DNA of 64,000 nucleotides from Apium graveolens (lineage: Eukaryota; Streptophyta; Magnoliopsida; Apiales; Apiaceae). Location: positions 236,372,201 to 236,436,200 of the forward strand of contig NC_133649.1 in NCBI RefSeq assembly GCF_009905375.1, read 5' to 3'. Shown in pieces: positions 6,002-47,648 of the stretch. The stretch's first letter is position 1. Every line of letters begins with the position of its first letter. A program made the position numbers and the translations under genes. The notes under the pieces were generated by a model. That model worked only from the letters and a program-made list of their open reading frames with translations. It was not told the DNA's origin and ran no database searches.

Positions 6002-6484
6002 TGTTAGGCCATTAATCAACTGTAGAGGGGGTGAATACAGTTAATACAATTAATTAGACAAAGCTTCAATAGAATTAATGGTTTTTATATTAACAGATAA
6101 AAAAGAGATTACAAACGTACTCTCTTAAAAGGATGAACAAATATCCTTGAGACCTGCTAGATTATGCGAAAAATATAACAATGTCGCAATGCATATAGCA
6201 TGAACCTAATATGTGCTTTATATAGAGCACAACTACACAATGTATAAGGAATCTTATTCTATTAACAAAAAGGAAACCTAATACAATGCTTCTGAGATAA
6301 AGTCCTTCACCGCCTTGAGTTCCTTTTTCCTTTTCCTTATCGAAGATCTACTGATGTGATAAATACTAATTACATCATCCGTTGATCTGTTGATATCATT
6401 ATCCGTTGATATCATCATCCGTTGATATAAGTTCTGATGTGAACTTCTGATAGTTTCTGCTGATATCATCAATTGCTCCTAACA
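6002..6484 (-). mobile_element. LTR of copia element G (3' LTR, minus orientation)
   Basis: The segment begins TGTTAGGCC and ends CTCCTAACA, giving TG...CA termini on either strand. On the minus strand it directly follows a polypurine-type tract (GTTGAGGGAGATTG), which is the 3' end of a SIRE-type copia internal region. At 483 bp it is shorter than the other copia LTRs here, so internal loss is possible. No matching 5' LTR is in the window. Confidence 0.65.
6376..6465. repeat. Short motif cluster ATCCGTTGATATCAT in LTR G
   Basis: ATCCGTTGAT occurs three times (about 6377, 6401 and 6417), interspersed with CTGTTGATATCAT and CTGATG/CTGATA variants. It is the LTR-embedded short-motif design also seen, with other sequences, in elements A/B and F. 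Confidence 0.6.
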
Positions 6485-8285
6485 ATCTCCCTCAACTTGT
6501 TCATTATGAAAATATGGACAAGTTCCAATTGATGATGTCAAAAATATCTAAATGCAGGAATTAAGTATGCATATTCAATCTTACTTCGGTGAATATCAAA
6601 TTTTACTCTACATTATGAACTCTAACACAATCTGGAAAATCTTCAAGAAACTTCCTCAACAGATTCTCTTCCATAACATCCAAATACCATTGCATCCTCT
6701 GTTTATGTTCCCTTAGTTCATTTGTTGATTCATCATTCTGATAAATGGCAGCCCTGAGATTATATAACTTTGAATTTCCAAGGGATAGATCATCCAGCTC
6801 CAGAAATCCAATTTTCTTTCCATTGGGATTAAAGATTAAAACTCTAGTCCCTAGACTCATTTCTATCTTGGCTCCTCCAATAGGCATATCAATAACATAT
6901 TCAGATTGATCAATGTACTTTGGAATGTAGTTTGATTTATAAGAAATTCAATTCTGCTTTAACTGTATCAGGTTCTTTATGAATGCAGACCATCTGGCAG
7001 TTACAAAATTAGTTACCTTGAGAATTGTAGCAATAAGTTCCAATTCCTGCCATGGTTTGTCTCTTAATTGTTCTTGCTTCAACCTAAAGCTTTTCCCAGA
7101 CTCCAGAAAATAGATTATTTTCTCTTCAGTATGATCAATAACAATTTGCACTGATATGATCTTCTGTAAGTCTTCAAGCATTACATTATCTCCAATTTCT
7201 GTCAAATAAGAATGCTTTCTTAGAGTCAAAGCATCTCCTACAAATGGATCATCAACATTTAATCTTCCAAGACCACCTGTGATTCCAGGTTGTCTAGATC
7301 GAGAACTTCCACTATAAATCTTCTTTAATATTTCAGAAGAATCTATTCTAGGTGCTGGTTTCTTGCTTCCCCATAGTAGCTTCTTCTTTTCTTCAAAATT
7401 AAGTTCTGACTTATCAGAGACTATGTCTTCAGAATCAGGATTTGATAAATCTGCTTGAATTAGGTTTAAGAAAGAAACAACATGAGTAGAATCAGAGGTT
7501 GTGATTGGTTGAATAACAGCTTCTTTCTTAACTTGAGCAGTGTCAGAAATTTATTTCAGTTTATCGGCCCAATCAGATCTATAAATCTTCCTTCTTTGGC
7601 GAGCTTGGCTGATTCTTCTTCTTCAAATATTTCTTCAATATCATAAGCTTGAACTACTATATAGATTAGATTTATCTGTATTTTATATTTAGTTTCCTTA
7701 GATACTGATTTCTTCTTTGCAACAACTTTGGCTTTAGACTTTGAAATCTTTGACTTCTCTCATATCTTCTCTTTTCCTTTAAGCTTCTTGTCAGCAGTTA
7801 AAATAGCTTGAAATCTGAGAGATCTTTCATCTTCTGCCTGACTAACTTCCCTTATAAGTACACCTCTGGTTGGTATGTTAGAAGAATCATCTTCATAAAG
7901 TACTTGAGAAATAACAACAATATCATTTGCTGTCTTCATGGAATTCTTGAAGTCTTCCTCCATTTGCCTTAGTTGTTCATGATCAATTCCAGGATTTTCT
8001 CTTTCAAAGATTCTTCTACTCACCTTAGAGTCAAATGCTTGAATCTTTGGATCCTTGTAGAACAGAGGTGTCTTCCATCCTTTTACTTTCAGAATTTGAA
8101 TATATTGACTTGCTTCAGCACCAACTTCTATCTCCAGAATACCTTTGTCTTCATTAGCAGCAGTTGTGACTTGTAAAGTAATTGTTATATTTTTGTAGTC
8201 ACAGTCAATTATTTAAATCTTTTATTTCTCTTACTCTCTCCACCTTGCCTAGATTGAGATCTAGTGATCGCTTTTGATGAACCAC
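6485..8285 (-). pseudogene. C-terminal part of the extra ORF of copia G
   Basis: Three minus-strand frames (8023-7760 with open extension up to about 8170, 7229-6948 and 6887-6603) together resemble the C-terminal half of the extra ORF of copia F (44965-46437). Both have a P-L-F-Y-K-D-P or S-I-V-F-Y-K-D-P block followed by a Lys/Arg-rich helix, then a block with paired basic residues and a long alternating helix, and end shortly before the polypurine tract. Stops and frameshifts separate the pieces. The function of this protein is not known; it is an extra ORF carried downstream of pol in SIRE-type elements. The 5' side is cut at 8285 by the LTR of copia A. Confidence 0.55.
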
Positions 8286-8889
8286 TATCATATATAAGTG
8301 ATGATGTCAAAGATTACTGAAGATAATAATATCATTAGTTGCCCTGGTCAAAGTGTGAAACATAGCCAAATGGACATCTGATCTAAGGAGAATAATGAAC
8401 TGTTACTTTTTATAATTTGTTAAGCTTGGGGTTAGTCTAGTTAACAAGCATGAATGTGTGTTAAGCAATCTTCTCACCAACTGGGAGAGATTGTTGTGCA
8501 AGAAATGCCTGTATCTAAACAAGACTAAGTCATTTTGTCAACCCTAAATAAGTTGTATTGTTATCTTAATTTGTATTTTGTAATTGTAACATTTAAAATC
8601 TGTAAAAATGTCAAAAGAGTAGACTGAAGCCTTTTTCTATAAACAGTATCAAGCTTAAGAATTTTATCTGGAAGAAGATCAAGAAGATCATGCCTCAGAA
8701 GAATTCTAAAGAAGCTTGGAGTTGAATAAAGCTGTTTTAGGAAAAATACTCTAAGTCAAGATCTCTACAAGTCACAGATTTAATGTTATAGAGAAGTCAT
8801 TCCAGAACTCCAGAATGGCTTATAGAGAACTCAGAAAGCTTACAGAGAAATCAGAGATATTGACAAGCAAATTGAAGATGTGAAGATTG

Positions 8890-9165
8890 GAGATATCGAC
8901 AAGTCATTTCTTCACTAGAGTACTCAGAGTTATCGAAAAGTCTACATTCATTAGAGAACTCTGAGTTATCGATAAGTCTAAGTATACTAGAGAACTCAGA
9001 GATATCGATAAGTTAAAATTCACTAGAGAACTTTAAGTTATCGACAAGACAAAGTGAAGACATGATGCTGAGAGATCTCGATAAGCTAAAGTTTCATTCG
9101 AGAACTTAGAGACCTCTATAAGTCAAATTCACTACAACATTAGAGATCTCGATAAGTCATTATAC
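8890..9165 (+). repeat. ~36-bp tandem array in LTR A
   Basis: A unit of the type CTAGAGAACTC-AGAGATATCGATAAGTC recurs. Core TATCGA/TCTCGA starts lie at 8894, 8931, 8967, 9003, 9039, 9076, 9113 and 9147, so steps are 37, 36, 36, 36, 37, 37 and 34 bases. The core is near-palindromic (GACTTATCGATAAGTC). The inverted LTR at 20717-21496 holds the same first part. Confidence 0.75.
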
Positions 9166-20716: not shown

Positions 20717-21496
20717 ATCATGTCTTCACTTTATCTTGTCGATAACTTAGAGTTCTCTAGTGAATTTTGACTTATCGATATCTCTAAGTTCTCTAGTAGA
20801 CTTAGACTTATCAATAACTCAAATTTCTCTAATGAATGTAGACTTGTCGATAACTCTGAGTTCTCTAGTGAAGAAATGACTTGTCGATATCTCCAATCTT
20901 CACATCTTCGATTTGCTTGTCGATATCTCTGATTTCTCTGTAAGCTTTCTGAGTTCTCTATAAGCCATTCTGGAGTTTTGGAATGACTTCTCTATAACAT
21001 TAAATCTGTGACTTGTAGAGATCTTGACTTAAAGTATTTTTCCTAAAACAACTTTATTCAACTCCAAGCTTCTTTATAATTCTTCTGAGGCATGATCTCT
21101 TGATCTTCTTCCAGATAAAATTCTTAGGCTTGATCTTGTTTATAGAAAAAGGCTCCAGTCTGCTCTTTTGACATTTTTACAGACTTTAAATGTTACAAGT
21201 ACAAAATACAAATTAAGATAATAACACAACTTACTTAGGGTTGACAAAACGATTTAGTCTTGTTTAGATACATGCATGTCTTGCACAACAATCTCTCCCA
21301 ATTGGTGAGAAGATTGCTTAACACACATTCATGCCTGTTAACAAGACTACCCCCAAGCTTAACAGATTATGAAAAGTAACAGTTCATTATTCTCCCTAGA
21401 TCAGATGTCCATTTGGCTATGCTTCACACTTTGACCAGGGCCACTAATGATATTGTTATCTTCAGTAATCTTTGACATCATCACTTATATATGACA
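20717..21496 (-). mobile_element. Partial 3' LTR of copia B, inverted copy of LTR A
   Basis: The minus strand starts TGTCATATATAAGTG right after a polypurine tract and matches the first ~780 bases of LTR A (8286-9066), including the GACTTATCGATA motif array. The match ends sharply at 20717 (GTGAAGACATGAT), where plus-strand extra-ORF sequence abuts. The distal half of the LTR is absent. Confidence 0.75.
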
Positions 21497-29649: not shown

Positions 29650-30215
29650 GAGTTTTTAAAAAATTCCAAGTTAAAATATGTATCGAGAAGTCTAGGTATT
29701 TATAGAAAAAGTAAATGACTTGTCGAGAACTCAAAAATAGACGTGTGGAGTTTGTCCATCGAGAAGTCATTTTAAGAAATGAAGTATATTTCGAGAAGTC
29801 ATTTTAAATTACTCTTTTAGAGAACTCAAAATTGACTTATTGAGATGTCAAATAAATACCCAGTTTATCCAAAAAGTGGACTGAATTAATTCCAACTTTT
29901 ATTTGAACAAATTCAAAAATAAAAATTAGAATAAATTTTCCAAGGGTATTTTACCAAAATAATTTATTGATTTAAATTATCTCAGTTCTGAGTTATTGAT
30001 AAGTCAACAATTGTACTTGTAGAGAACTCTGCGAACTATCAGTACTAGAGAACTCTTCAAGGACTTATCGATAGGTCATTGTTAAGCCTATCGAGGAGTC
30101 ACTCGAGAAGTCAGTAAATTGACTTATCGAGGACTCACTCGAGAAGTACTAAAATGACTTGTCGAGAAGTCAATTTTGACTTATCGAGAACTCAGTTCTC
30201 TATATACTTTAGGTT
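29650..30215 (-). repeat. Motif cluster (TCGAGAAGTC / GACTTATCGA) in the pol to ORF spacer of copia B
   Basis: At least a dozen copies of TCGAGAAGTC, GACTTATCGA and GAGAACTC variants occur in both orientations, densest at 30060-30205. The same vocabulary forms the array of LTR A and the B LTR. The spacer is otherwise noncoding. Confidence 0.75.
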
Positions 30216-32027: not shown

Positions 32028-33066
32028 ACCAGCAGTAGGATCACCAATAATTGCTTCTCTAGTGTGACTTCTATCCCACTTCCTTGTATGCGTTTGTTGA
32101 CTTGTGCCTTCATTATTTTCTTCATTGTTGCTATGACTACTGGATCCTTCTTCTCTTTCCCCCCTGAGTTTGTGCTCTCAAATTCAGGTGTTTGAGATAA
32201 GTTTCCATTTCCATAATTTTCCTGCTGAGTAGTCTCTTCATTTAATGTCTGTTGAGCATCAACTTTATCTTCCCCATCAGAATCACTATAAATGTTGAGG
32301 TTTTCAAATACTAGGGTTTCAGCTTCATTATCATCAAGGCATTCCAAGTTTGGACACTTGTCATCATCAAAGGTCACATCTGTGCTCTCCATAATCTTCT
32401 TTTGATTAATCACATAAACTTTGTAGGCTGTTCTTTCCAGTGAATATCCCATAAAAATTGCTTCAAAAACCTTTGAGTCAAATTTTCCACATATTCAGAG
32501 TTGTCTTTCAAAATGTAACACTTTCTTCCAAACACATGAAGATGTTTACAGTAGGCTTTTTTAGACATGATTGAGTAAGGTGACTTGCCATGTGCCTTGT
32601 TAATGAGATATCTGTTCTGAGTATAACATGCAATGTTAACAGCCTCTTCCCAGAAATTTGTTGGCAACTTGGCATCTTGCAACATTGTCCTGGCAGCTTC
32701 AACCAATGTTCTGTTTTTTCTCTCAACTACTCCATTTTGTTGAGGTGTTCTGGCATCTGAGAATTCTTGAACAATGCCTTTGCCTTTGCGGAAATCATTC
32801 AATGTAGCATTTCTGAATTCTGTTCCATTGTCACTTCTCAATATTTTCACATAATTGTAATCTTCAGCCTGTTTTTCTATCTTCCTGATGTGCTCAATTA
32901 TGATGTGTGGAGTTTCATCTTTAGAGTACATGAACTCTACCCAAGTGTATCTTAAGAAATCAACCACCATCACAAGTGCATATTTGTTCCTTGAAATTGA
33001 TAAGACATTCACTGGCCCAAATAAGTTTATGTGAATAAGTTGTAATGGTGCACTTATAGAATTCAC
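32024..33066 (-). pseudogene. pol: Copia B integrase and integrase-RT linker
   Basis: The core has R-S-D-N-G-T-E-F and Q-Q-N-G-V-V-E-R-K-N-R-T, the second and third catalytic acidic positions. The first position reads H-I-N-L-F-G-P-V instead of the usual H-x-D-L-F-G-P, so the leading Asp is replaced by Asn; this alone should abolish strand transfer. A frameshift occurs near 32440-32500, after which the acidic linker (32452-32024) continues. The zinc-binding N-terminus is partly in the next upstream piece. Confidence 0.85.
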
Positions 33067-35846: not shown

Positions 35847-36186
35847 TGTTGTGAATATGTTGTGTACTTGATGATCACTTAAACAAAACATCTAAGTAGA
35901 TTTTACTTAGTGAAATAATGTAGCACTCGACGGATAAGAATTATAGTCCCGACGGATAACTCATTATAGTCCCGACGGATGATTAACTTATTATCCATTG
36001 AGTGAGTAGCTTATGTAATAATAAGTTTGTAGCACAGTGATGTATGTACCTTTGTATAGAATCTGTAGTAGCATATAAGTCATGTTGACTTTAACTAGAT
36101 ATGCAGAATAGGTTGATTAATTGTACATAAGCAATGTCTTGTAATTCTGTATAAGTGAAATGAAGTCAAGTGCCAAAATAGCTACC

Positions 36187-36303
36187 AACAGATGATTAAC
36201 AAAGCCTTCGACGGATGATCAAATGACTATCAACGGATGTTTAACATAGCAGTTGACGGATGATCAATTAAGTCATCGACGGATGATCTGAAAGTCGACG
36301 GAT
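36187..36303 (+). repeat. ~22-bp tandem array of CGACGGATGATC in LTR F
   Basis: Core starts are 36187 (CAACAGAT), 36209, 36231 (CAACGGAT), 36254 (TGACGGAT), 36277 and 36296; steps 22, 22, 23, 23 and 19. All copies are in the same orientation. The 3' LTR has the same array with more C-to-T changes in the core. Confidence 0.85.
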
Positions 36304-36481
36304 GATCATATCAAGAATTCAAACATCAGTTGAACAGTGAAAGCTGACACACAGCCGTCGAGTTGGATACAAACATATTGTGGAAGCCCATTAACTGGGT
36401 AATAGAGGACGAAAAGCAGCAAAGATTAAGACTGTTAGATTTTATATTTGTTCAGTCTTTTTGACTTTGTAATCTTGGTTT

Positions 36482-36488
36482 TATATAA
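36482..36488 (+). promoter_or_regulatory. TATA box of LTR F
   Basis: TATATAA lies in the loop of an inverted repeat (CTTGGTT...AACCAAG), about 190 bases after the motif array and 380 before the LTR end. The 3' LTR keeps the TATATAA. Confidence 0.55.
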
Positions 36489-36871
36489 ACCAAGAGAGTA
36501 GCAAATAGAAAAATAACTGAGATAGTTGAGAAACACAAAAACAGAGAAATCTTTGTAAGCTTAATCTTTAGCATTTCTTGTATTCTCAGTAGTTCAATTT
36601 GTAAGCAGCTGTAAGCATTTCTGCACACAGAGTCCTCTCGATATATTATATATATCTCTGGTGGAATTGTTTAAATCCACCAGAAAGTTTTTAAAGACTC
36701 TTGTTTTTAATTACTTATGTTTTGATTCATTTAAGTTTACATTCCGCATTGTACTAATCAAAACAAATATATCTTTAATCGAGTTGAACATTTTTATTTC
36801 AAGAAAAAGGTTCAAGAATTCCATTCAACCCCCTTCTGTAATTCTTGCTATATTGTTAAGGGACTAACAAT

Positions 36872-36883
36872 TGGTATCAGAGC
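36872..36883 (+). other. Primer-binding site of copia F
   Basis: TGGTATCAGAGC two bases after the LTR end, matching initiator tRNA-Met. Confidence 0.9.
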
Positions 36884-36930
36884 AAGCTCTTAATCTACAA
36901 AGAGTTTAAAGATCAAAACAATTCAGCAAG

Positions 36931-37973
36931 ATGAATAAGAAAGATGTTGGAGTCAAGATTCCTTTTCTTGATAAAGATAATTACCATCATTGGAAGGTAA
37001 AGATGCATCTTCACATGCTTTCTCAAGATGAGGCCCATGTGGACTGCATAGAAAGAGGTCCTCATGTTCCAATGAGAGCTGCAACAGGAAACGAGCCATC
37101 TGTTCCAAAGCCAAGGCATGAATGGTCTGATCCTGACATTGAACAAGTCATGAAAGATAAAAAGGCCATGAACATTCTGTTCAATGGTGTTGATGCAGAC
37201 ATGTTTGATAACATCATCAACTGCAAAACTGCCAAGGAAGTTTGGGACACAATACAGATAATTTGTGATGGCACTGAGCAAGAGAAAATAAAATGCAGCT
37301 CCTGATTCAGCAATATGAGCATTTTCACAATGAAGAAAGTGAGTCACTCACTGACATTTTTAGTAGATTCCAAAAACTACTAAATGCTCTTAAGTTGCAT
37401 GGAAGAGTCTATCAGACTAAAGACTCCAATTTGAAATTTCTCAGATCTCTTCCAAAGGAATGGAAACCAATGACAGTCTCATTGAGAAACTCACAAGATT
37501 ATAAGGAGTTTACTTTGGAGAGCTTGTATGGCATTCTGAAAACCTATGAGCTTGAGATAGAGCAGGATGAAAGAATGGAGAGAGGAAAGAAGAAAGGAGG
37601 ATCCATTGCACTAGTTGCTGATCTGGAAAAGGAGAAGGAAGTGAAGATGGAAGCTGTGGAATCAACTTCAAAGGTCTGTGAAAGCAAGGGTAAGGGGCTA
37701 GCTGCAGAAAATGAAGATTCATTGAGCCAAGATTACATGGAGGACATTGATGAGCACCTAGCATTCCTTTCAAGAAGATTTGCCAAGCTCAACTTCAAAA
37801 AGAACTTTGGAGCAGCCAAGCCAAATAGAAACATGGTGGATAAGTCAAAATTCAAATGTTTCAAATGTGGCTTGGCAGGGCATTTTGCAAATGAGTGTAG
37901 AAAGTCAGATTCCAGTAAGAAAAGATTTGAGTCTGTAGATTACAAGCAAAAATACTTTGATCTACTCAAATAA
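36931..37973 (+). pseudogene. gag: Copia F gag
   Basis: Starts M-N-K-K-D-V-G-V-K-I-P-F-L-D with D-N-Y-H-H-W-K-V-K-M, D-N-I-I-N-C and A-K-E-V-W-D-T-I, then continues after a frameshift near 37290 with L-L-I-Q-Q-Y-E-H-F and L-K-F-L-R-S-L-P. A zinc knuckle C-F-K-C-G-L-A-G-H-F-A-N-E-C lies near 37858. A TAA at 37971-37973 separates it from the protease part in the same frame; it fits a Gln codon lost by C-to-T change. Particle-forming protein; without repair it cannot be made full length. Confidence 0.9.
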
Positions 37974-38021
37974 AAGGAAAGGGCTTTTATTACACAAGAG
38001 AATGACTGGGCAGCTGATGGT

Positions 38022-40046
38022 TTGGATGAAGATGAAGATGTCAGCTATGTCAATCTAGCCCTTATGGCCAAGTCTGATGAAACAGAGACAAGTTCCTCAA
38101 GCAATCAGGAAAATAGAAGGAATCTTTGGTACTTGGATAGTGGTTGTTCAAGACACATGACTGGTGATTCTACCCTGCTCACAGAGTTTAAGGAAAGAGC
38201 TGGCCCAAGTATTACTTTTGGAGATGACAGCAAAGGATATACTGTGGGATATGGCTTGATTTCAAAGGACAATGTCATCATTGAAGAGGTTGCCTTAGTG
38301 GATGGTCTCAAACACAATCTGTTGAGTATCAGCCAGCTTTGTGACAAAGGCAACTCAGTAACCTTCAACAAAGAAGCCTGTGTTGTGACTAACAATTAAA
38401 ACAACAAAGTGGTTCTCACTGGTGTGAGAAGAGGAAATGTGTATCTAGCTGACTTCAACTCAACTAAAGCAGAATCTGTAACTTGTCTTCTCAGTAAAGC
38501 AAGTCAAGATGAAAGTTGGCTATGGCACAAGAAACTATCCCATTTAAACTTCAAGACCATGAATGAGCTGGTAAAGAAAGAACTAGTAAGAGGCATTCCT
38601 CTAGTGGAGTTTACAAAGGATGGACTGTGTGATGCCTGCCAAAAAGGGAAGCAGATCAAAGCATCATTCAGGAAGAAACTTGATTCAGCAATTGAAGAGC
38701 CTCTGCAACTCCTTCACATGGATTTGTTTGGACCAGTCAATGTATTGTCAATTTCAAAGAAAAGATTTTGCCTAGTAATTGTAGATGATTTCTCAAAGTT
38801 CTCTTTGACATATTTCCTAAAGTCTAAAGATGAGGTTAGTGAAATCATCATCAATCACATAAGGCAAGTTAACAGTCATCCTGATTTCAAAGTTAGAAGA
38901 ATCAGGAGTGACAATGGAACTGAGTTCAAGAACTATGTCATGAGAGCATTTTGTGAGGAAAATGGAATCTTGCATGAGTTTTCAGCAGCAAGGACTCCAC
39001 AACAGAATGGAGTAGTGGAAAGAAAGAAGAGATCTTTTATTGAAGCTGCAAGGAAAATGCTTGAAGAATCAAAATTACCAACATATTTCTGGGCTGAAGC
39101 TGTAAACACTGCATGCTACACTCAGAACATCTCTCTGATTAATCAAGCAAGATGCATGACACCTTATCAATTGTTCAAGAACAAGAAGCCAACTCTAAAC
39201 TTTCTTCATGTCTTTGGCTGTAAATGCCATATTCTGAGAAATCAAACTGATCAAAATGGGAAGTTTGATGCTAAAGCAGATGAAGGAATTTTTGTTGAAT
39301 ATGCTGTTGGTAAAGCATATAGAGTCTACAATCTAAGAACCAACATTGTTGTTGAATCTATACATGTTATGTTTGATGATAAAAAGATTGAAGGACTAAA
39401 AGATGGAGATTACCATGAGAGCCTCAAATTCGATAATGTTGAAATGGTCAGTGATGAAAGTGATGATGAGAGTGATCAAGAAACAGTGTCTAAGGATAAT
39501 GTAGACAAATCTACCACCAATGAAGCACATAACTCAACATCCATCGAGTTACATAATGCTTCATCCGTCGGAAGGCAATCTGTGTTATCCGTCGGAAGAC
39601 AACCTGCCTCATCCGTCGGTACTCAAAATTCACCATCCGTCGGGTTATCTAAAGGAGCAGGAAATCAAGGAAGGTCACCTATAGAAAGTACCCCTTTCAC
39701 AAATCAAAGATCCACAAACTCAGGGGGAGTTTCTAGCAATCAAAACTCAATCACACATCAAGACAATATTGAGGTCTCTTCATCTAGAGCCAATCTACCT
39801 CAACCAAGGAAATGGACAAAAGATCACCCCTTTGAACTAATTATTAGTGATGTGTCTTCTAGAGTTCAAACAAGAAGAGCAACTCAGGAAGAATGTCTAT
39901 ACAGTAGCTTTCTGTCAAAGGAAGAACCAAAGAAGGTAGAAGAAGCTTTGCTGGATCCTGATTGGATTTTAGCTATGCAGGAGGAGCTAAACCAATTTGA
40001 AAGAAATAAAGTTTGGAAGCTGGTACCCAAGGAAAGAATCCAATAG
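38022..40046 (+). pseudogene. pol: Copia F protease and integrase
   Basis: Same frame as the second part of gag. L-W-Y-L-D-S-G-C-S-R-H-M-T-G is the protease active site. A TAA at 38397 interrupts it, then 38409-40046 is open for 545 codons: L-W-H-K-K-L-S-H-L-N and C-D-A-C-Q-K-G-K form the zinc site; H-M-D-L-F-G-P-V, R-S-D-N-G-T-E-F and V-V-E-R-K-K-R give the D-D-E catalytic triad, all present. The Ser/Asn-rich tail holds the 24-bp motif array. The frame is lost near 40046, just before RT. Confidence 0.92.
39539..39642 (+). repeat. Exact 24-bp-period ATCCGTCG array inside the integrase-RT linker
   Basis: ATCC(G/A)TCG starts at 39539, 39563, 39587, 39611 and 39635: four steps of exactly 24 bases (8 codons), all in one orientation. 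It encodes repeats of the S-S-V-G-x-Q type in a disordered linker. The core is the complement of the LTR motif. Confidence 0.85.
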
Positions 40047-40072
40047 ACACCAAATAGGTATTCAGGAACAAG

Positions 40073-41362
40073 ATGGATGAAAATGGCATAGTAGTAAGGA
40101 ACAAAGCCAGATTGGTTGCTAAAGGCTATTGCCAGCAAGAAGGAATAGATTTTGATGAAATATTTGCTCCTGTTGCAAGACTTGAAGCCATCAGAATCTT
40201 CTTAGCCTATGCAGCCCATGCCAATTTCAAGGTCTATCAAATGGATGTCAAAAGTGCCTTTCTGAATCTGAAAGCACTTTATGGACTGAAGCAAGCACCT
40301 AGAGCCTGGTATGACACTTTATCAAAGTTCCTTTTGGAAAATCACTTCACAAGAGGTACTGTAGATAAAACTTTATTTTTCAGAAATGTTAATGGCTCTA
40401 GCATACTTGTTCAAATTTATGTAGATGATATTATCTTTGGCTCTACAGATGAGAAATTTTGTAAAAAGTTTGCCAAACTGATGCAAAGTAAGTATGAAAT
40501 GAGTATGATGGGAGAACTAACTTACTTTCTTGGTTTACAAGTTAAGCAAGTTAGTGATGGAATATTCATTAGTCAAACTAAATATATTTTTGATCTTTTA
40601 AAGAATTTTGATCTAATGGATTGCACATCTGCAAAAACTCCCATGGCCACTGCAACTAAGCTTGAACTAAACACTACTGAAAGGTCTGTGGATATTTCAA
40701 GCTATAGAGGCATGGTTGGCTCACTTCTGTACTTAACAGCTAGTAGGCCAGATATAATATTTGCTACATGTTTATGTGGTAGATTTATGGCTGATCCTAG
40801 AGAGTCTCACTTAATAGCTATTAAGAGAATTTTCAGATATCTCAAGGGAACACCAAAACTTGGCATTTGGTATCCTAGCGATTCTGGTTTTAATCTAACT
40901 AGTTATTCAGATGCAGACTATGCAGGTTGCAGAATTGACAGAAAAAGCAAAACAGGAACTTGTCAATTTTTAGGAAACAAGCTTGTGTCCTGGTTCAGTA
41001 AAAAGCAAAATTCAGTTTCTACTTCTACAGCTGAAGCTGAATATATTGCTGCTGGCAGTTGCTGTGCACAGATTTTATGGATGAAAAATCAATTGCTAGA
41101 CTATGCTCTGCAAGTTGAGAGGATTCCTATTTTCTGTGATAACACAAGTGCAATTGCCATCACCGAAAATCCAGTGCAACATTCAAGGACAAAGCACATA
41201 GACATCAAGTACCATTTCATAAGGGAACATGTAATGAATGGTACTGTAGAGTTACATTTTGTTCCAAGTGAGAAGCAACTTGCAGACATATTTACCACGC
41301 CACTGGATAAATCCACCTTTTCTAGGTTGGTAAGTGAGTTAGGTATGCTTAATTACTCTTGA
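40073..41362 (+). pseudogene. pol: Copia F reverse transcriptase and RNase H
   Basis: Open for 429 codons in a new frame: A-R-L-E-A-I-R, V-K-S-A-F-L-N, then directly [15 protein letters not shown]. The ~30 residues that normally lie between these blocks (seen in copia B as a G-E-L-E-E-E-V-Y region) are missing. The catalytic Y-V-D-D-I-I-F-G-S is intact; RNase H shows D-A-D-Y-A-G-C, S-T-A-E-A-E-Y and C-D-N-T-S-A-I, and ends [11 protein letters not shown]. The internal deletion removes part of the RT palm, so the enzyme is probably inactive. Confidence 0.92.
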
Positions 41363-41455
41363 ATCTATCTGAGTTAATTTGCAAGTTGAAAAGTAGCCAG
41401 AAATTTAACTGATTTTTAGTCATGAATGAAATTTTGACTAAGTCAAAATTTGCAT

Positions 41456-41670
41456 CTCGACGGATGACCATTATCCATCGAGTTAAGTCATCCGTCGATA
41501 TACAATGTGCAAATAAAAATTAATTATTTTTCTGGAATCTTTTAAAACTCGACGGATAACAGTTTATCCTCATCCGTCGAAGTGTCTAAATCTTAACCGT
41601 TAATTCCCTGAACATTATCCATCGAGTATACTTACAGTTTGTAAGCATTACACGACGGATAATGAGTGAA
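41456..41670 (+). repeat. Inverted-pair motif cluster upstream of the copia F extra ORF
   Basis: CGACGGAT at 41458, ATCCATCG at 41473, ATCCGTCG at 41490, CGACGGAT at 41550, ATCCGTCG at 41572, ATCCATCG at 41617 and CGACGGAT at 41653. Pairs 41458/41473 (7-base gap) and 41550/41572 are inverted and can form hairpins; the latter has a perfect 8-bp stem. The cluster lies ~100 bases before the TATA box of the extra ORF. Confidence 0.85.
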
Positions 41671-41766
41671 ATTTTTACAGTTTATTCTTAAAACGGCTAA
41701 TTTGGGCAATTTCTATCGGGTAATTTACTTCTCTTTATTATTTTTATCCGTTGTTTTTGAGCAAAA

Positions 41767-41774
41767 TATAAAAG
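41767..41774 (+). promoter_or_regulatory. Internal TATA box for the extra ORF
   Basis: TATAAAAG, 110 bases before the ATG at 41884. A pyrimidine-rich leader (TCATTCTCTCTC and CTCTTTCTCTTC) follows and the start context is AACAATGGC, the favoured plant context. Suggests a separate mRNA for the extra ORF. Confidence 0.55.
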
Positions 41775-41883
41775 CTTATTTCATTCTAATCATTTTCTTT
41801 TATCATTCTCAAATTCAACTGTGTTTATTTCATTCTCTCTCAAGCAAAAATCCTCTTTCTCTTCAAGCTTTCCTTCTCTAACA

Positions 41884-44800
41884 ATGGCACCTGTAGTAAA
41901 TATTATGTCTCAGACTGGGTTCATTTATGATAAGAACAACTTCACTGCTTTGGTCAACAAGGGCATTCAGCAATCAAAAGACTATCACAAGATGATGGAC
42001 TTCGTGAAGAACTGCAAGTTAAGTTTTGCCATGCTTGAATCACCCACAATCTTTTGTGAAGTTGTAGAAGAGATGTGGACCTCTGCAATTTACAACTCTA
42101 CTGACAAAACCATCACTCTGACAATCAAAGGTAATGACTTCTGTATCAATAGTGATGTGATAAAAGCATGTTTCAAGATTCCTGATGATAATGTAACTTC
42201 ACCACACACTGACACTGATTTGATCAATATGCTTAACTCCATGCATTATGCACTTCCTACTAATAAGCTAAGTGATATTAGGAGATTAGGTCTTAGGAAG
42301 GAATGGAGTTTTATGTGTGATGTTGTAACTAAAGTTTTCTCTGGAAAAATCGAGAATTTTGATTCTGTGAACATTTCCATGCTTAACATGCTATACATGC
42401 TAGTTACAGACAAATTTTACAATTTCAGTGACCTTGTCATATATGAGTTAGGTTTTAAACTAGGTGAGTTAGCCAAAAGGGGAAAGAACATATATTATGC
42501 TAGATTTTTTATGCTATTGGCTAACCATCTTTGTCAAGAAATTGCACTTGAGAACCCAAACAACAAATTAGCTTGTTGGGTTCAAGAGAGAAGAATCATT
42601 GCAGATTTGAACAGAGCCAACCACCATAGGGATGTGCCAATGTTCTATTTTCCTGTAATGCTTACACCTCAGGTAAGTGAGGTAAGTTCATCCATACCCT
42701 CAACTATTCCAATCTCCTCTATTTCTTTAACTTCAGGCATAGCTAAGGCAACTATGACAATGACCAAACAGTTGCCTACCAAAGCTGCCAAATTAACTGT
42801 AATTTCCAAATCCAAATCAAAGAAAACCCCCTCTAGTATCTCTCAAAAGGTACCAGTTGAAAAATCTACCAAAGCCAAAGAGGGGAGTGTGAAGGAGGGT
42901 CAGATAGGTGAGGGAAGGGGTGAACATCAAAGAAACCCCAAGGATAAGGTTGGAGAGTTGAGTGAATCCCAGCCTAGCCACACTGCAGTTTCCCAACAAA
43001 CTGCAGTGCTTAAAAAGGATAAAAGCTCACTTCTAGCTGCATCCTCCCAAAAGGATGTGGCTATTGAACAAAGCTCTCATCCAAGAGCACAGGCCAAAAG
43101 GGTTAGGGACACAAGCTCACCCCAAACTTACACTAGAAAGAAGAAATCCAAAACAACTGGGGATGCACAGGGCACACACACAGTGCAAACTGGTGTTAAA
43201 GACACAGTCCCTGCACCTTCTCAAATTCAGATTGATGTGGCTCCAATAAATGTGGAGTCACAGTCAAAATCTCTTATAATAGAAGCCACTGAAACACCAT
43301 ACTCACCAACTAACTCACTGGAAGTGGATATGATAAACACTTCAATTCCTAATTCCCCTTCTTTAACTCTGTTGGGGAAGCCAAAATCTAGTGCAAGTGA
43401 GCATCATCTTTTAGATGATTTGTTGGTTCACTTGCCAATTCTTTTAGATACTATTGTGACATCTGTGCCTCAAATAACTTCAATCAACATAGAGTCAACA
43501 ATAGTTTCTCTTCCCACCTCATTCATTTCTACTCTCTCGATGGATATTGCTCATCCGTCGAGTAGTGATTGTATCCTGACGGATAAGCTTAACAGCAGTT
43601 ATCCGTCAGATAGCTTTACCACTCACCCGATGGATACCACTTATCCGTCGAGTGTCTCTGCACAACTTCAAACTTCAATTATTTCTAGTGCAGAAGATTT
43701 AGTGGTAATAGAATCACTCTTAGGACTGAGAGAGGAGAGTGCTTTGAGTGAGAGGCTGGGTTGCTCCCAGGCAAAAGGAGAGGAAAAGAGTGAATCTCAA
43801 CAATCCATTTCTTCAGGATTGGCAAAAGTGAGTGAGAGGAGTCCCACCTTAGTAGGTGAAGGTGATGGTGTGAGGGTGGGGAGCCAGGGTGAGTCCCTGA
43901 TGCAACAAAAGAGAGAATATGAGAGAAAGGCAGGTACAGGAGAAATAAGGGTGGATCCAGCCATTGCTAGTGAGTCAATGATTGTGGATGATGCTGAAAA
44001 GGGAAGACAATTTCAGCAACATTACAAAGCTGAAATTGATAACATTTTCTTGGATGCTGACACTTTTACTCATCCTGTGTCAGCCTATCAATATTTGGCT
44101 GCTCAGGGCAATGTGGAGGCAGAGCAGACTTTGAATTTGGTGCACACCACAGAATCTCTTCAAAGAGATAAAGCTGCTGTTAACAGGATGCCTTCTCAAG
44201 CTGGAGAGCCATCTGAAGAATTTGGAGTAAATTCTAATGATGATGACTCTGGTTCTTTGGACGGAAGTATGAACTTAGGGGGAGCTGAAGGCCCAAGTTT
44301 TGCTTTAAGTTTACCTGAATGGGCATGGGCAAAGGAATCTACACCAGGAGAATTTGAGGTGTCTTTGGTCAAACAAGTAATAGCTATTCAACAGGCCCTT
44401 CAGGAAACTTCAGATGCTGGTACCAAGGCTTTTCTTCAAGCTTACCTAGACTCTCTACATCTAATGAAGATCCAGCACTTAAGACAGAATCTTAGTATGG
44501 ATGAATTTAAAAGAGATATAGCTGACTTGAAGACCTATAACTCTGAGAAGCTGGATTCAGTAATGCCATATGGTACCATGCAAGATCTACTACTAAGATT
44601 GAGGAGAGAATCAGACTCTGAAAAGAAGCTAGCCAAGCTGGAAAACAGAGTTCAAGTTATTGAAGATTCAGTGGCTATTCTTCTTCAAAATCAACAGACT
44701 CAGACAAATCTTCTCATGCAACTGGCTAAAGCACAAGGCCTAACTCCTCAACTTGATGCTAACAAAAAGGGGGAGAGAGAATCAAGTAAGGGGGAGAAAG

Positions 44801-44892
44801 GACCAACAGAGGGGGAGAAACTTCAAGTACAAATCAGTACCTTCAATTACTATCTCCAAGCCACCAGTTGCAGATGGTATAGATCTAATTAA
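41884..44892 (+). CDS. Copia F extra ORF, N-terminal ~1,000 codons
   Basis: The frame is open from 41821, but the ATG at 41884 (M-A-P-V-V-N-I-M-S) has the AACAATGGC context and lies after the TATA box and leader. About the first 260 residues form a globular, helix-rich domain with conserved-looking aromatic spacing (F-V-K-N-C-K-L-S-F-A-M, I-K-G-N-D-F-C-I, W-V-Q-E-R-R-I); I do not recognise the family. A long Ser/Thr/Lys/Pro-rich disordered part follows, holding the motif hairpins at 43538-43650, then a helical region and a coiled coil with L-L-Q-N-Q-Q-T-Q-T-N-L-L. The frame shifts near 44820 and continues in the next entry. SIRE elements carry an extra ORF here, sometimes called env-like; I see no signal peptide or membrane span, so an envelope role is not supported. 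Confidence 0.7.
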   Translation: MAPVVNIMSQTGFIYDKNNFTALVNKGIQQSKDYHKMMDFVKNCKLSFAMLESPTIFCEVVEEMWTSAIYNSTDKTITLTIKGNDFCINSDVIKACFKIPDDNVTSPHTDTDLINMLNSMHYALPTNKLSDIRRLGLRKEWSFMCDVVTKVFSGKIENFDSVNISMLNMLYMLVTDKFYNFSDLVIYELGFKLGELAKRGKNIYYARFFMLLANHLCQEIALENPNNKLACWVQERRIIADLNRANHHRDVPMFYFPVMLTPQVSEVSSSIPSTIPISSISLTSGIAKATMTMTKQLPTKAAKLTVISKSKSKKTPSSISQKVPVEKSTKAKEGSVKEGQIGEGRGEHQRNPKDKVGELSESQPSHTAVSQQTAVLKKDKSSLLAASSQKDVAIEQSSHPRAQAKRVRDTSSPQTYTRKKKSKTTGDAQGTHTVQTGVKDTVPAPSQIQIDVAPINVESQSKSLIIEATETPYSPTNSLEVDMINTSIPNSPSLTLLGKPKSSASEHHLLDDLLVHLPILLDTIVTSVPQITSINIESTIVSLPTSFISTLSMDIAHPSSSDCILTDKLNSSYPSDSFTTHPMDTTYPSSVSAQLQTSIISSAEDLVVIESLLGLREESALSERLGCSQAKGEEKSESQQSISSGLAKVSERSPTLVGEGDGVRVGSQGESLMQQKREYERKAGTGEIRVDPAIASESMIVDDAEKGRQFQQHYKAEIDNIFLDADTFTHPVSAYQYLAAQGNVEAEQTLNLVHTTESLQRDKAAVNRMPSQAGEPSEEFGVNSNDDDSGSLDGSMNLGGAEGPSFALSLPEWAWAKESTPGEFEVSLVKQVIAIQQALQETSDAGTKAFLQAYLDSLHLMKIQHLRQNLSMDEFKRDIADLKTYNSEKLDSVMPYGTMQDLLLRLRRESDSEKKLAKLENRVQVIEDSVAILLQNQQTQTNLLMQLAKAQGLTPQLDANKKGERESSKGEKGPTEGEKLQVQISTFNYYLQATSCRWYRSN
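43538..43650 (+). repeat. Three motif inverted pairs inside the extra-ORF coding sequence
   Basis: CGATGGAT 43538 / ATCCGTCG 43553, TGACGGAT 43578 / ATCCGTCA 43601 and CGATGGAT 43628 / ATCCGTCG 43643. Orientation alternates strictly; the first and third pairs share the 8+7+8 spacing of 41458-41480. The encoded repeats are of the H-P-S-S and Y-P-S-S type. Confidence 0.85.
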
Positions 44893-44964
44893 AGCAGCAA
44901 TAGCAAATTTCAAAGTTGCTAAAAAAGGAAAGTTGAGTTTGATCAACTGGGATAAGATTGATGA

Positions 44965-46437
44965 GGAGATACAGAAAAATTTGAACTAGTCAAGGAGCCA
45001 GTTAAGTCAGCCATCCATCACTCTCATGTCAAGCCAATCAGTGTGAATGAGATGAGCATGAACTATCTGGAGAAAGGAAAATCTTCCTGCATCAAATCAC
45101 AAAAGGCTGAAATAATTCTCAAACCAAGGGCAAATTATCCAAAGTCATCTTTGAAGAATCCCTTGGACACTGTGTATGAGACACCCAAGCCTGATGAAAA
45201 GAAGCTTCTGTCAAGATCCATTGTCTTCTATAAAGATCCAACTGATTCAGCCTCAAAAAGGAGAATTGCTAAGATATTCAGAAATGGAAAGGAAATTTGT
45301 GTGGTAGCTGGACATCCACAATTTGCTCAAGCAAAGAAAGAAGAGAAAGCAAGATTAAAGAAGGAAAAGAGGCAAGCTGCTCTAGATGCTAAGAAATCTA
45401 AACAAAAGAAAGAGCAGATTGTCATCTTGGCCAAGCTACAGGCTGTAAACTCTTCTCAACAAATTCCCTCTCAACCATCTGAAGTTGCTGAATCAAAGAA
45501 GAAGATTGAAGAACAGAAGAAATCCCCAAGAAAGAAGGAATTGGCTAGAAGAACAAAAAGGAAACTGGATGTTGTTGACAAGGAATTGGAAGATCAATTT
45601 CCTAAGGAATCCACACCAGCTAAAACTCAAGCATCAAAGCCCTCTGTGGTATTTGAAGACATAAGGGTGGTGGACCCCTACAGGAATATACATGGAGAGC
45701 CTATTGTGCCAAAGGATGAGCCAATAGAGTGGGATAAATTACCAATTCCTGACTTCAACTTGCCAATCCTTACTAAGCCAAAAAGGACAAAATCAAGGGC
45801 AGTCAAGAAAGTGAAGCTGTCACCTCTCAAATCCAAGTTAGTAGTTAAAGCTCAACCCAAGGTCAACTGGGGAGACTACTTGTACTTGTGTGACATCAAA
45901 GAATTCTCAGATCTAAACCTTTATCTGGAGGAACTGGATGAAGTAAGGGCAATTGATGCATACAGAAACCTACCTGAAAGGTTGGTGTTCAAGTACAAAG
46001 GAGGAAGGGAGATTCAGTGGCCTCTTCACAGGGTACTTCAAGAAAGCCAAGCTGTGTTGATCAAAGTCTATTCATCCTTCAAGAAAAACTTTGGGTTCAA
46101 TGTAACTGCAAGAAGACTAGTATTGAAAAAGATTGAAGAGCTGAGGAGTGTTAGAGCTAAAGATGCACTCCCAAAGACTCTAATCATCCCATACACAGGG
46201 AGAAGAGTGCATCTAAGGCCCTACTGGCTGATGGAATTCATGGATGACAAGGGTGTGAGAAGATTCTTCAGACTAGAAGACCAATTGAGTATCTCTAGCA
46301 ATGAGACTCTCTTGGAGATGCAAGAATTGCTAGATCTCTCAGAATCTGATGAACTAGAATTCCACAGGCAGCTCCAGAATCAAATTGAAGAAAACAACAG
46401 AAAGCTTGGAAGAAGATCCAGACCTTCAAGAAACTAG
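44965..46437 (+). CDS. Copia F extra ORF, C-terminal ~490 codons
   Basis: Reading returns to the frame of the first part after a ~150-base stretch read in another frame, so two compensating indels (near 44820 and 44975) interrupt what was one ORF of about 1,500 codons. This part has S-I-V-F-Y-K-D-P, a long Lys/Glu-rich helix, a W-G-D-Y-L-Y-L-C block and a compact end with F-K-Y-K-G-G-R-E-I-Q-W-P-L-H-R-V-L-Q and P-Y-T-G-R-R-V-H-L-R-P-Y-W. The same module occurs in copia G. The ATG at 45064 or 45043 could serve internally, but the upstream frame is open and homologous. Function unknown. Confidence 0.6.
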   Translation, partial: GDTEKFELVKEPVKSAIHHSHVKPISVNEMSMNYLEKGKSSCIKSQKAEIILKPRANYPKSSLKNPLDTVYETPKPDEKKLLSRSIVFYKDPTDSASKRRIAKIFRNGKEICVVAGHPQFAQAKKEEKARLKKEKRQAALDAKKSKQKKEQIVILAKLQAVNSSQQIPSQPSEVAESKKKIEEQKKSPRKKELARRTKRKLDVVDKELEDQFPKESTPAKTQASKPSVVFEDIRVVDPYRNIHGEPIVPKDEPIEWDKLPIPDFNLPILTKPKRTKSRAVKKVKLSPLKSKLVVKAQPKVNWGDYLYLCDIKEFSDLNLYLEELDEVRAIDAYRNLPERLVFKYKGGREIQWPLHRVLQESQAVLIKVYSSFKKNFGFNVTARRLVLKKIEELRSVRAKDALPKTLIIPYTGRRVHLRPYWLMEFMDDKGVRRFFRLEDQLSISSNETLLEMQELLDLSESDELEFHRQLQNQIEENNRKLGRRSRPSRN

Positions 46438-46612
46438 AAAAACCTGCTCAGGCTAGAGGAGCATCTTGAACTGACTGTGAGCCAAACCTTGTACATTTTG
46501 TTTAATTGAAGCACTTTCAGTTTTATCTACTTATCTTTAAAGATACATGTTTAGGATGTTTTGTTATCATCAAGTATCTCTTAATTTATGGCTACAATTC
46601 CAGTAGACATAA

Positions 46613-46624
46613 ATTGGGGGAGAT
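46613..46624 (+). other. Polypurine tract of copia F
   Basis: ATTGGGGGAGAT immediately precedes the 3' LTR start TGTTGTG. Confidence 0.9.
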
Positions 46625-47648
46625 TGTTGTGAATATGTTGTGTACTTGATGATCACTTAAATAAAACATCTAAGTAGATTTTACTTAGTGAAATAATGTA
46701 GCACTTGACGGATAAGAATTATAGTCCCGACGGATAACTCATTATAGTCCCGACGAATGATTAACTTATTATCCATTGAGTGAGTAGCTTATGTAATAAT
46801 AAGTTTGTAGCACAGTGATGTATGCACCTTTGTATAGAATCTGTAGTAGCATATAAGTCATGATGACTTTAACTAGATATGCAGAATAGGTTGATTAATT
46901 GTACATAAGCAATGTCTTGTAATTTTGTATAAGTGAAATGAAGTCAAGTGCCAAAATAGCTACCAACGGATGATTAACAAAGCCTTCGATGGATGATCAA
47001 ATGACTATCAATGGATGTTTAACATAGCAGTCGACGGATGATCAATTAAGTCATCGACGGATGATCTGAAAGTCGACGGATGATCATATCAAGAATTCAA
47101 ACATCAGTTGAACAGTGAAAGCTGACACACAGCCGTCGAGTTGGATATAAACACATTATGGAAGCCCATTAACTGGGTAATAGAGGATGAAAAGCAGCAA
47201 AGATTAAGACTGTTAGATTTTATATTTGTTCAGTCTTTTTGACTTTGTAATCTTGGTATTATATAAACTAAGAGAGTAGAAAATAGAAAAATAACTGAGA
47301 TAGTTGTGAAACACAAAAACAGAGAAATCTTTTTAAGCCTAATCTTTAGCATTTCTTGTATTCTCAGTAGTTCAATTTGTAAGCAGTTGTGAGCATTTCT
47401 ACACACAGAGTCCTCTCGATATATTATATATATCTCTGGTGGAATTGTTTAAATCCACCAGAAAGTTTTTAAAGACTCTTGTTTTTAATTACTTATGTTT
47501 TGATTCATTTAAGTTTACATTCCGCATTGTGCTAATCAAAACAAATATATCTTTAATCGAGTTGAACATTTTTATTTCAAGAAAAAGGTTCAAGAATTCC
47601 ATTCAACCCCCCTTCTGTAATTGTTGCTATATTGTTAAGGGACTAACA
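46625..47648 (+). mobile_element. 3' LTR of copia F
   Basis: TGTTGTGAATATG...GGACTAACA, followed by the AGATT duplication. Compared with the 5' LTR, several CGACGGAT cores here read CGATGGAT or CAATGGAT, the pattern of C-to-T decay at CpG. Confidence 0.95.

Follow-up and report, generated by a model that had tools for sequence, protein, structure and literature searches.

We analyzed a 64,000-nucleotide window of the celery (Apium graveolens) genome (contig NC_133649.1, positions 236,372,201 to 236,436,200), which contains a Ty1/copia retrotransposon at 35847–47648, counted from the first base of the window. The element is bounded on both sides by a 5-bp target-site duplication (AGATT) and has two long terminal repeats (LTRs). 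The 5′ LTR (35847–36869, TG...CA), with AGATT to its left, is 97.5% identical to the 3′ LTR (46625–47648), with AGATT to its right; these and all features below lie on the forward strand unless stated. Between the LTRs are gag, integrase and reverse transcriptase (RT) sequences of the copia type (Pfam Retrotran_gag_2, rve and RVT_2), the gag and pol frames being interrupted in this copy. Downstream of pol is an extra, envelope-like open reading frame (ORF), whose first open stretch (41884–44889) matched no Pfam profile. The element looks like a Sirevirus, judging from the junction between LTR and primer-binding site (PBS), the C-rich LTR end and the extra ORF; its polypurine tracts fit in part. 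Our subject is an 8-bp motif, CGACGGAT in one orientation and ATCCGTCG in the other, which represents this element’s version of the published Sirevirus repeated motif (RM) and which recurs in the LTR, the integrase–RT linker, the spacer downstream of pol and the extra ORF that follows this spacer.

The window holds 13 exact copies of CGACGGAT and eight of ATCCGTCG, and all 21 lie inside the element. Dinucleotide-preserving shuffles of the element (n = 200) yielded none (mean 0, maximum 0), and a chance origin was therefore rejected, in agreement with a preliminary description of this DNA. The four compartments with distinct geometries given in that description are likewise all present. With up to one mismatch allowed, the count for the window rises to 48, of which 37 fall within the element. 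These 37 sites cover only 296 of the 11802 bases of the element (2.5%), yet contain 61 of its 79 CpGs. By holding about three quarters of the CpGs, the motif offers a natural place to study how regulation of the element and methylation by the host compete.

Two clusters are found in the 5′ LTR. The first (35928–35980) consists of three direct, exact copies at 35928, 35950 and 35973, and the second (36186–36303) is a direct array with a spacing of 19–23 bp, starting at 36186, 36209, 36231, 36254, 36277 and 36296, in which the copy at 36186 has two mismatches and those at 36231 and 36254 have one each. A single site in the opposite orientation, with one mismatch (AGCCGTCG), occupies 36353–36360 on the reverse strand. 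A TATA box (TATATAA, 36482–36488) lies 178 bp past the array; the published mean distance from CpG island to TATA box in Sirevirus LTRs is 37 bp (PMC2829016, cited here and below for the accessible part of its text). The 3′ LTR repeats the array, with copies at 46706–47081 and 47131. The direct array of ≈22 bp period had been recognized previously, but its first copy was placed at 36187, and the cluster starting at 35928 and the second occurrence in the 3′ LTR were missing from the list.

The spacer cluster (41458–41660) has three sites in the forward orientation (41458, 41550 and 41653) and four in the reverse (41473, 41490, 41572 and 41617). The inverted pairs described previously could thus be located, but an eighth site at 41746, with one mismatch, had been omitted. 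Beyond the cluster follow, in order, a TATA box (TATAAAA, 41767–41773, 106 bp past the cluster), a CT-rich leader and the extra-ORF start (AACAATGGC), and the TATA box, leader and start could be aligned with those of a second family, G, described below. This order points to a putative internal promoter ahead of the extra ORF, bearing in mind that sequences resembling a TATA box are frequent wherever DNA is rich in A and T. With this segment, the earlier proposal that an internal promoter serves the extra ORF can be put to a direct test.

In the linker, five units of ATCCGTCG (39539, 39563, 39587, 39611 and 39635; 39539–39642, reverse strand) follow each other in frame (A TCC GTC G, encoding SVG), each starting precisely 24 bp after the one before. 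The direct array was as first described, except that its first unit has one mismatch in the window copy (ATCCATCG); many other fetched genomic copies have ATCCGTCG at this place. Between the five units, the 8-base core is 95% alike and the 16 flanking bases 41% alike. The family is numerous: in a search of the assembly (3.33 Gb in 4849 contigs) with the linker stretch, 40 of 3411 first-look candidates were scored, the window’s own included, and all reached at least 98%. The genome contains 3225 exact occurrences (1671 + 1554), unsorted by family or compartment, of the pair ATCCGTCGA-N15-ATCCGTCGA, with a spacing of 24 bp (the sole spacing counted), compared to 1 of the reversed control. Among the 29 linkers that could be delimited by word search in 186 fetched proteins, 11 repeat SV[DEG] at 8 or 16 residues.

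Three inverted pairs (43538–43650), with gaps of 7, 16 and 7 bases and in one reading phase, sit 1.65 kb inside the extra ORF. The left arms read T/CG ACG GAT and the right arms C/AT CCG TCG, with one-base variants. The alternation of orientations noted previously is there, but exact matches are limited to the copies at 43553 and 43643, each of the remaining four having one mismatch. A 7-base gap is common to the spacer pair 41458/41473 and the extra-ORF pairs 43538/43553 and 43628/43643. The peptide predicted from a pair with this gap is S[TM]Dxx[HYND]P[SL]; 21 of the 186 proteins contain it, with 26 occurrences in all, compared to 0.08 expected by shuffling, although the proteins are related and do not represent 26 independent events. 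In the aligned extra ORF, the three right arms encode [HY]PS in many celery proteins and a mixture of HPS and HPL in some, [HY]PL three times in two relatives, and HQL three times in a carrot protein in which STD is kept. HPS and HPL in celery DNA correspond to ATCCGTCG and ATCCGTTG, respectively, and we predict that both arms have changed further where the carrot protein has HQL. Peptides of this type (STDSEHPL, STDSKHPL and SMDESYPL) also precede the GAG-pre-integrase part of P0014 (residues 206–225) and P0020 (residues 22–29), from Heracleum and carrot, possibly representing a further compartment. A protein from Orobanche hederae (P0170) matches the extra ORF, including these peptides. O. 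hederae parasitizes ivy, which belongs to the same order as celery, and the match is worth a look as a potential case of transfer between plants.

All linker copies are in one reading phase and all extra-ORF copies, irrespective of orientation, are in another, supporting the claim that the motif respects the frame in coding sequence. Outside the motif, the codons that it forces are nearly unused in the open stretches: CCG encodes 0 of 110 prolines, TCG 0 of 270 serines and ACG 1 of 154 threonines. Copies in genes, in fixed phases and with otherwise avoided codons, help to separate constraint on the DNA from constraint on the protein.

Repeated motifs have been described in 13 Sireviruses, where they are palindromic, nearly always have a CGG/CCG core and, within the LTR, precede the TATA box (Bousios et al. 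2010, PMC2829016). They also occur just upstream of the envelope-like gene, where there is one, with a few copies at its start in two of the 13 elements. It was proposed that the RM regulates the LTR and perhaps an internal promoter, the function being left unproven, and no test of it came up in the literature consulted here. The celery motif shares with it the high copy number (at least eight: 21 exact and 37 with up to one mismatch), the CGG/CCG core, the clustering of CpGs, an LTR array before the TATA box and a cluster before the extra ORF. Since the published RM is found in the LTR and before the envelope-like gene, the arrays in the LTR and spacer were to be expected here and are of this known type, which had gone unrecognized in the preliminary description. 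However, the unit is not palindromic: dyad symmetry is seen only in part of the inverted pairs of the spacer and extra ORF, and the LTR and linker copies are one-way half-sites. We therefore filed the motif as a variant of the RM rather than a standard RM.

Also unlike the published RM, copies are present in the linker and 1.65 kb into the extra ORF. A literature search, for which most subscription papers were outside reach, found no report of one-way half-site arrays in the LTR, of in-frame RM copies in the integrase–RT linker or of RM pairs this far inside the extra ORF; for the 8-mer itself, the matches listed were unrelated by title. Relative to the accessible descriptions of the RM, the one-way LTR half-sites, the in-frame linker array and the three inverted pairs deep in the extra ORF thus appear to be new. 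The feature itself is real and not due to chance. One half of it corresponds to a known type; the other, made up of the coding copies seen in two families, is apparently new, the function of the motif being put forward here as a proposal.

The second celery family, G, was found with protein P0145. One G copy on C3 (loci L044, L069, L070 and L077) carries the motif in all four compartments, mostly as one-mismatch variants. The G linker (L069, the one locus with a linker among four fetched, L071, L073 and L075 showing none) has ATCCATCG once and ATCCGTTG twice in the 24-bp register. Two exact copies are found in the spacer (L070), and the extra ORF (L044) carries the motif as well. The G LTR, seen at L077, has at least five copies of CAACGGAT with a period of 22–23 bp, at the same place before the TATA box as the array in the window. 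The presence of CAACGGAT in this LTR and ATCCGTTG in this linker suggests that the variants changed in parallel. A single recent duplication confined to one compartment, the alternative named in the preliminary description, is rejected by the linker, spacer, extra-ORF and LTR copies of this diverged family. An LTR-like stretch elsewhere in the window (6003–6485, reverse strand) has three copies of the TCAACGGATGAT type, the variant seen in the G LTR. When viral and prokaryotic collections were searched by pattern for relatives whose DNA was available, 85, 5 and 216 stretches matched, none of which was confirmed.

Three whole G spacers were aligned with that of the window; the fourth fetched, L072, was left out because its first part was other sequence. 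With CpG transitions discounted and the absent site 41550 left uncounted, the seven RM sites agreed at 48/48, 48/48 and 47/48 bases, compared to 276/429, 294/451 and 295/452 (64–65%) in the flanks of the same loci; without the discount, the RM bases agreed at 42/48, 42/48 and 40/48. Whole 8-mers were kept, after the discount, at 6, 6 and 5 of the 7 sites, compared to 3–5% of other 8-base windows, although the L070 site matching 41490 has one inserted base that the count passed over, making it strictly 5 at that locus. For the extra ORF, 30 G loci with this stretch were compared. They had the best matches at the protein level, scoring having covered 68 of the 168955 first-look candidates. The RM bases agreed at 1334 of 1440 positions (92.6%) and the flanks at 1983 of 2940 (67.4%) with the CpG discount, and at 1164 of 1440 (80.8%) and 1979 of 2940 (67.3%) without it. 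These differences suggest that the coding copies were kept for a reason at the level of the DNA rather than the protein.

CpG transitions account for 13 of the 16 one-mismatch variants (4/24 expected by kind, p = 3e-8, with LTR sites counted twice and copies that are not independent). Of the 25 substitutions between the two LTRs, six fall within RM sites (80 of 1023 columns, p = 0.011), and all six are C-to-T or G-to-A. Changes of this type would be expected if methylated sites decayed after insertion, suggesting that the CpGs in the motif are methylated. When RNA folding was compared with shuffled sequences, the spacer and extra-ORF stretches of the window gave z scores of −5.8 and −6.1, respectively, whereas LTR arrays gave 0.16, −0.84 and −1.19. 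The linker had a z score of −3.2, for which the direct repeats alone do not readily account. The three G spacers scored −2.8, −3.3 and −4.5, and the extra ORFs of the 30 G loci had a mean of −4.8 (28 of 30 below −2), compared to −1.45 for controls from the same ORFs (45 of 120 below −2).

One reading of these results is that the inverted spacer and extra-ORF copies fold into RNA hairpins from which the host makes small RNAs, leading to methylation of all compartments that carry the motif, which would then be chiefly a host target. Consistent with this are the strong folding of the spacer and extra ORF, absent from the LTR array and retained in the G extra ORFs, the C-to-T changes at CpGs, and the concentration of small RNAs on palindromic LTR motifs in maize Sireviruses (PMC5311732, PMC10760457, as far as their text was accessible). 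The LTR palindromic region of the maize elements Ji, Opie and Giepum (Bousios et al. 2016) resembles the celery case, as its motif, too, is repeated within the regulatory part of the LTR, evolves fast and is tied to small RNAs and structure; its word, however, is CACCGGACNNNGTCCGGTG, which is palindromic and placed in the LTR. A purely harmful target should vanish, yet the motif is kept between families, and in the LTR and linker the copies form direct repeats rather than hairpins, notwithstanding the z score of the linker. As the chief explanation, we consider this possible but somewhat unlikely. The hairpins and the changes at CpGs would follow from small-RNA targeting, which may act on the same sites as a binding factor.

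The motif might alternatively act in the genomic RNA, where linker copies (ATCCGUCG) could pair with U3 copies (CGACGGAU) near the 3′ end and, together with the spacer and extra-ORF hairpins, serve in packaging, dimerization or circularization. The linker and LTR arrays are indeed oppositely oriented in the window element and in one G copy; the G linker and LTR both carry the complementary variant (ATCCGTTG with CAACGGAT), and the hairpins persist in G. However, one DNA motif changing everywhere would give the same pattern, the G linker and LTR come from one copy, and peptides such as SMDNPHPS suggest that other families have linker copies in mixed orientations. We find a role of this kind quite improbable.

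We prefer the interpretation, with a probability of roughly 0.5, that the 8-mer is a half-site of the family’s Sirevirus RM, recognized in either orientation by a sequence-specific DNA-binding protein of the host. A binding site thus ranks highest among the three roles proposed in the preliminary description, the others being an RNA signal and a small-RNA target. For a factor that recognizes the half-site in duplex DNA, orientation would not matter, which fits the finding of the same word as direct arrays, as inverted pairs and on its own. The LTR array would act upstream of the LTR TATA box and the spacer cluster upstream of the second TATA box, CT-rich leader and extra-ORF start; with RM copies ahead of both TATA boxes, the same factor could drive both promoters. 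The linker and extra-ORF copies would be further, in-frame sites in stretches that tolerate repeats rich in Ser, Thr and Pro. They would have been kept or repeatedly renewed in transposing lineages, and then have decayed in each inserted copy by C-to-T changes at methylated CpGs.

Several observations weigh against this interpretation. The motif has no known binding protein. In the spacer, sites 41550 (absent) and 41746 (GACAGTTT) are not kept in any of the three G loci; with all eight sites included, agreement of the RM bases falls to 52/56, 52/56 and 51/56, and if gaps are taken as differences and CpG transitions are not discounted, the seven sites agree at 42/56, 42/56 and 40/56 bases, compared to 276/471, 292/471 and 293/471 in the flanks. 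The peptide signature is missing from 16 Heracleum extra-ORF proteins, and a neighboring copia element, D, has no array of its own motif in its linker; together, these indicate that the coding copies are dispensable in some lineages. Within the family, nine LTR copies showed no significant difference between RM and other columns, either at non-CpG positions (variable in 3/43 and 130/930, respectively, p = 0.26) or at CpG positions (11/37 and 5/13, p = 0.73), in a comparison biased toward conserved arrays by the seven copies found with the array as query, and with site 36186 taken one base late. The expectation that motif sites are more conserved than their flanks thus failed within the family, where they hold 6 of the 25 LTR-pair differences, but held between families, both in the raw counts and more clearly with the CpG discount. 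Of the two possibilities in the preliminary description, that the motif spread or was kept at the DNA or RNA level, the G sequences suggest that it was kept. Homogenization between copies could also mimic selection.

Passive spread, in which a short repeat is expanded by slippage and template switching during reverse transcription and its copies are carried without function in tolerant coding stretches, would account for several of these observations. The arrays are minisatellite-like, the variant in the G LTR extends over the whole array as turnover would produce, the signature was lost in a Heracleum group, and two of the eight spacer sites are unshared. However, the similarity of the linker units is concentrated in the core rather than the flanks, and the spacer sites are dispersed, not tandem, and are mostly kept in G. 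We consider passive spread unlikely.

Among codons with a conserved residue, fourfold-degenerate sites were not significantly better kept in RM codons (102/136) than elsewhere (2539/3634, p = 0.22), which also counts against binding to DNA. This, and the recurrence of the peptides in relatives, would be expected if selection acted on the Ser-Val-Glu/Gly repeats of the linker and on the extra-ORF peptide S[TM]Dxx[HY]P[SL], with the DNA word as a by-product. The same word is present in the non-coding LTR and spacer, however, and is read in two different phases in the coding regions, with CCG, TCG and ACG codons that the ORFs otherwise avoid. Selection on the peptides alone was rejected as very unlikely on these grounds.

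A broader reading is that one DNA word serves as an element-wide code, in which a host factor, or long-range RNA pairing between the linker and U3, links the LTR promoter, the internal promoter and two coding genes, with the word changing in parallel in the compartments during the divergence of families and the reading frames bending to it. We offer this tentatively, and think it rather unlikely.

The assignment of the element to the Sireviruses draws on several further features. At the junction CA/ATTGG/TATCAGAGC, which includes the PBS (36868–36883), all 16 bases match the published sequence. A C-rich integrase signal (CAACCCCCTTCTG, judged by eye and unscored) ends 31 bp before the LTR end; the published mean distance is 21 bp (PMC2829016). 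The terminal polypurine tract, TGGGGGAG followed by AT (46615–46624), abuts the 3′ LTR at the expected place, but differs by one base from the Sirevirus octamer AGGGGGAG. Exact octamers are found at 39722, 44277, 44768, 44789 and 44810, all at least 1.8 kb from the 3′ LTR. Published Sirevirus tracts are clustered near the 3′ LTR, with 83% within 0.5 kb and the terminal one starting 10 bp upstream (PMC2829016). The octamer at 39722–39729 lies in frame in the integrase–RT linker, where it encodes SGG, and is kept in 25 of 30 fetched copies of the linker stretch. Family G (L069) has the octamer too, as does, in the form AGGGGGGA, the linker of element D near 32165 (reverse strand), and GG is found in 26 of the 29 delimited linkers. 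It may represent a conserved internal polypurine tract.

Element D has a motif of its own, CTCGAYAAGTC/GACTTRTCGAG, in the spacer (29690–30190, reverse strand) that separates its pol from a further ORF. Judged by eye, the motif cluster, a TATA-like site, a CT-rich leader and an ATG occur in the same order as in the RM element, which also favors the binding-site interpretation, but the word is different and lacks CGG. Arrays resembling the D motif (ATCGATAAGTC) are also present in an inverted pair of stretches at 8288–9066 and 20717–21494, which are 94.7% identical and are probably pieces of LTRs.

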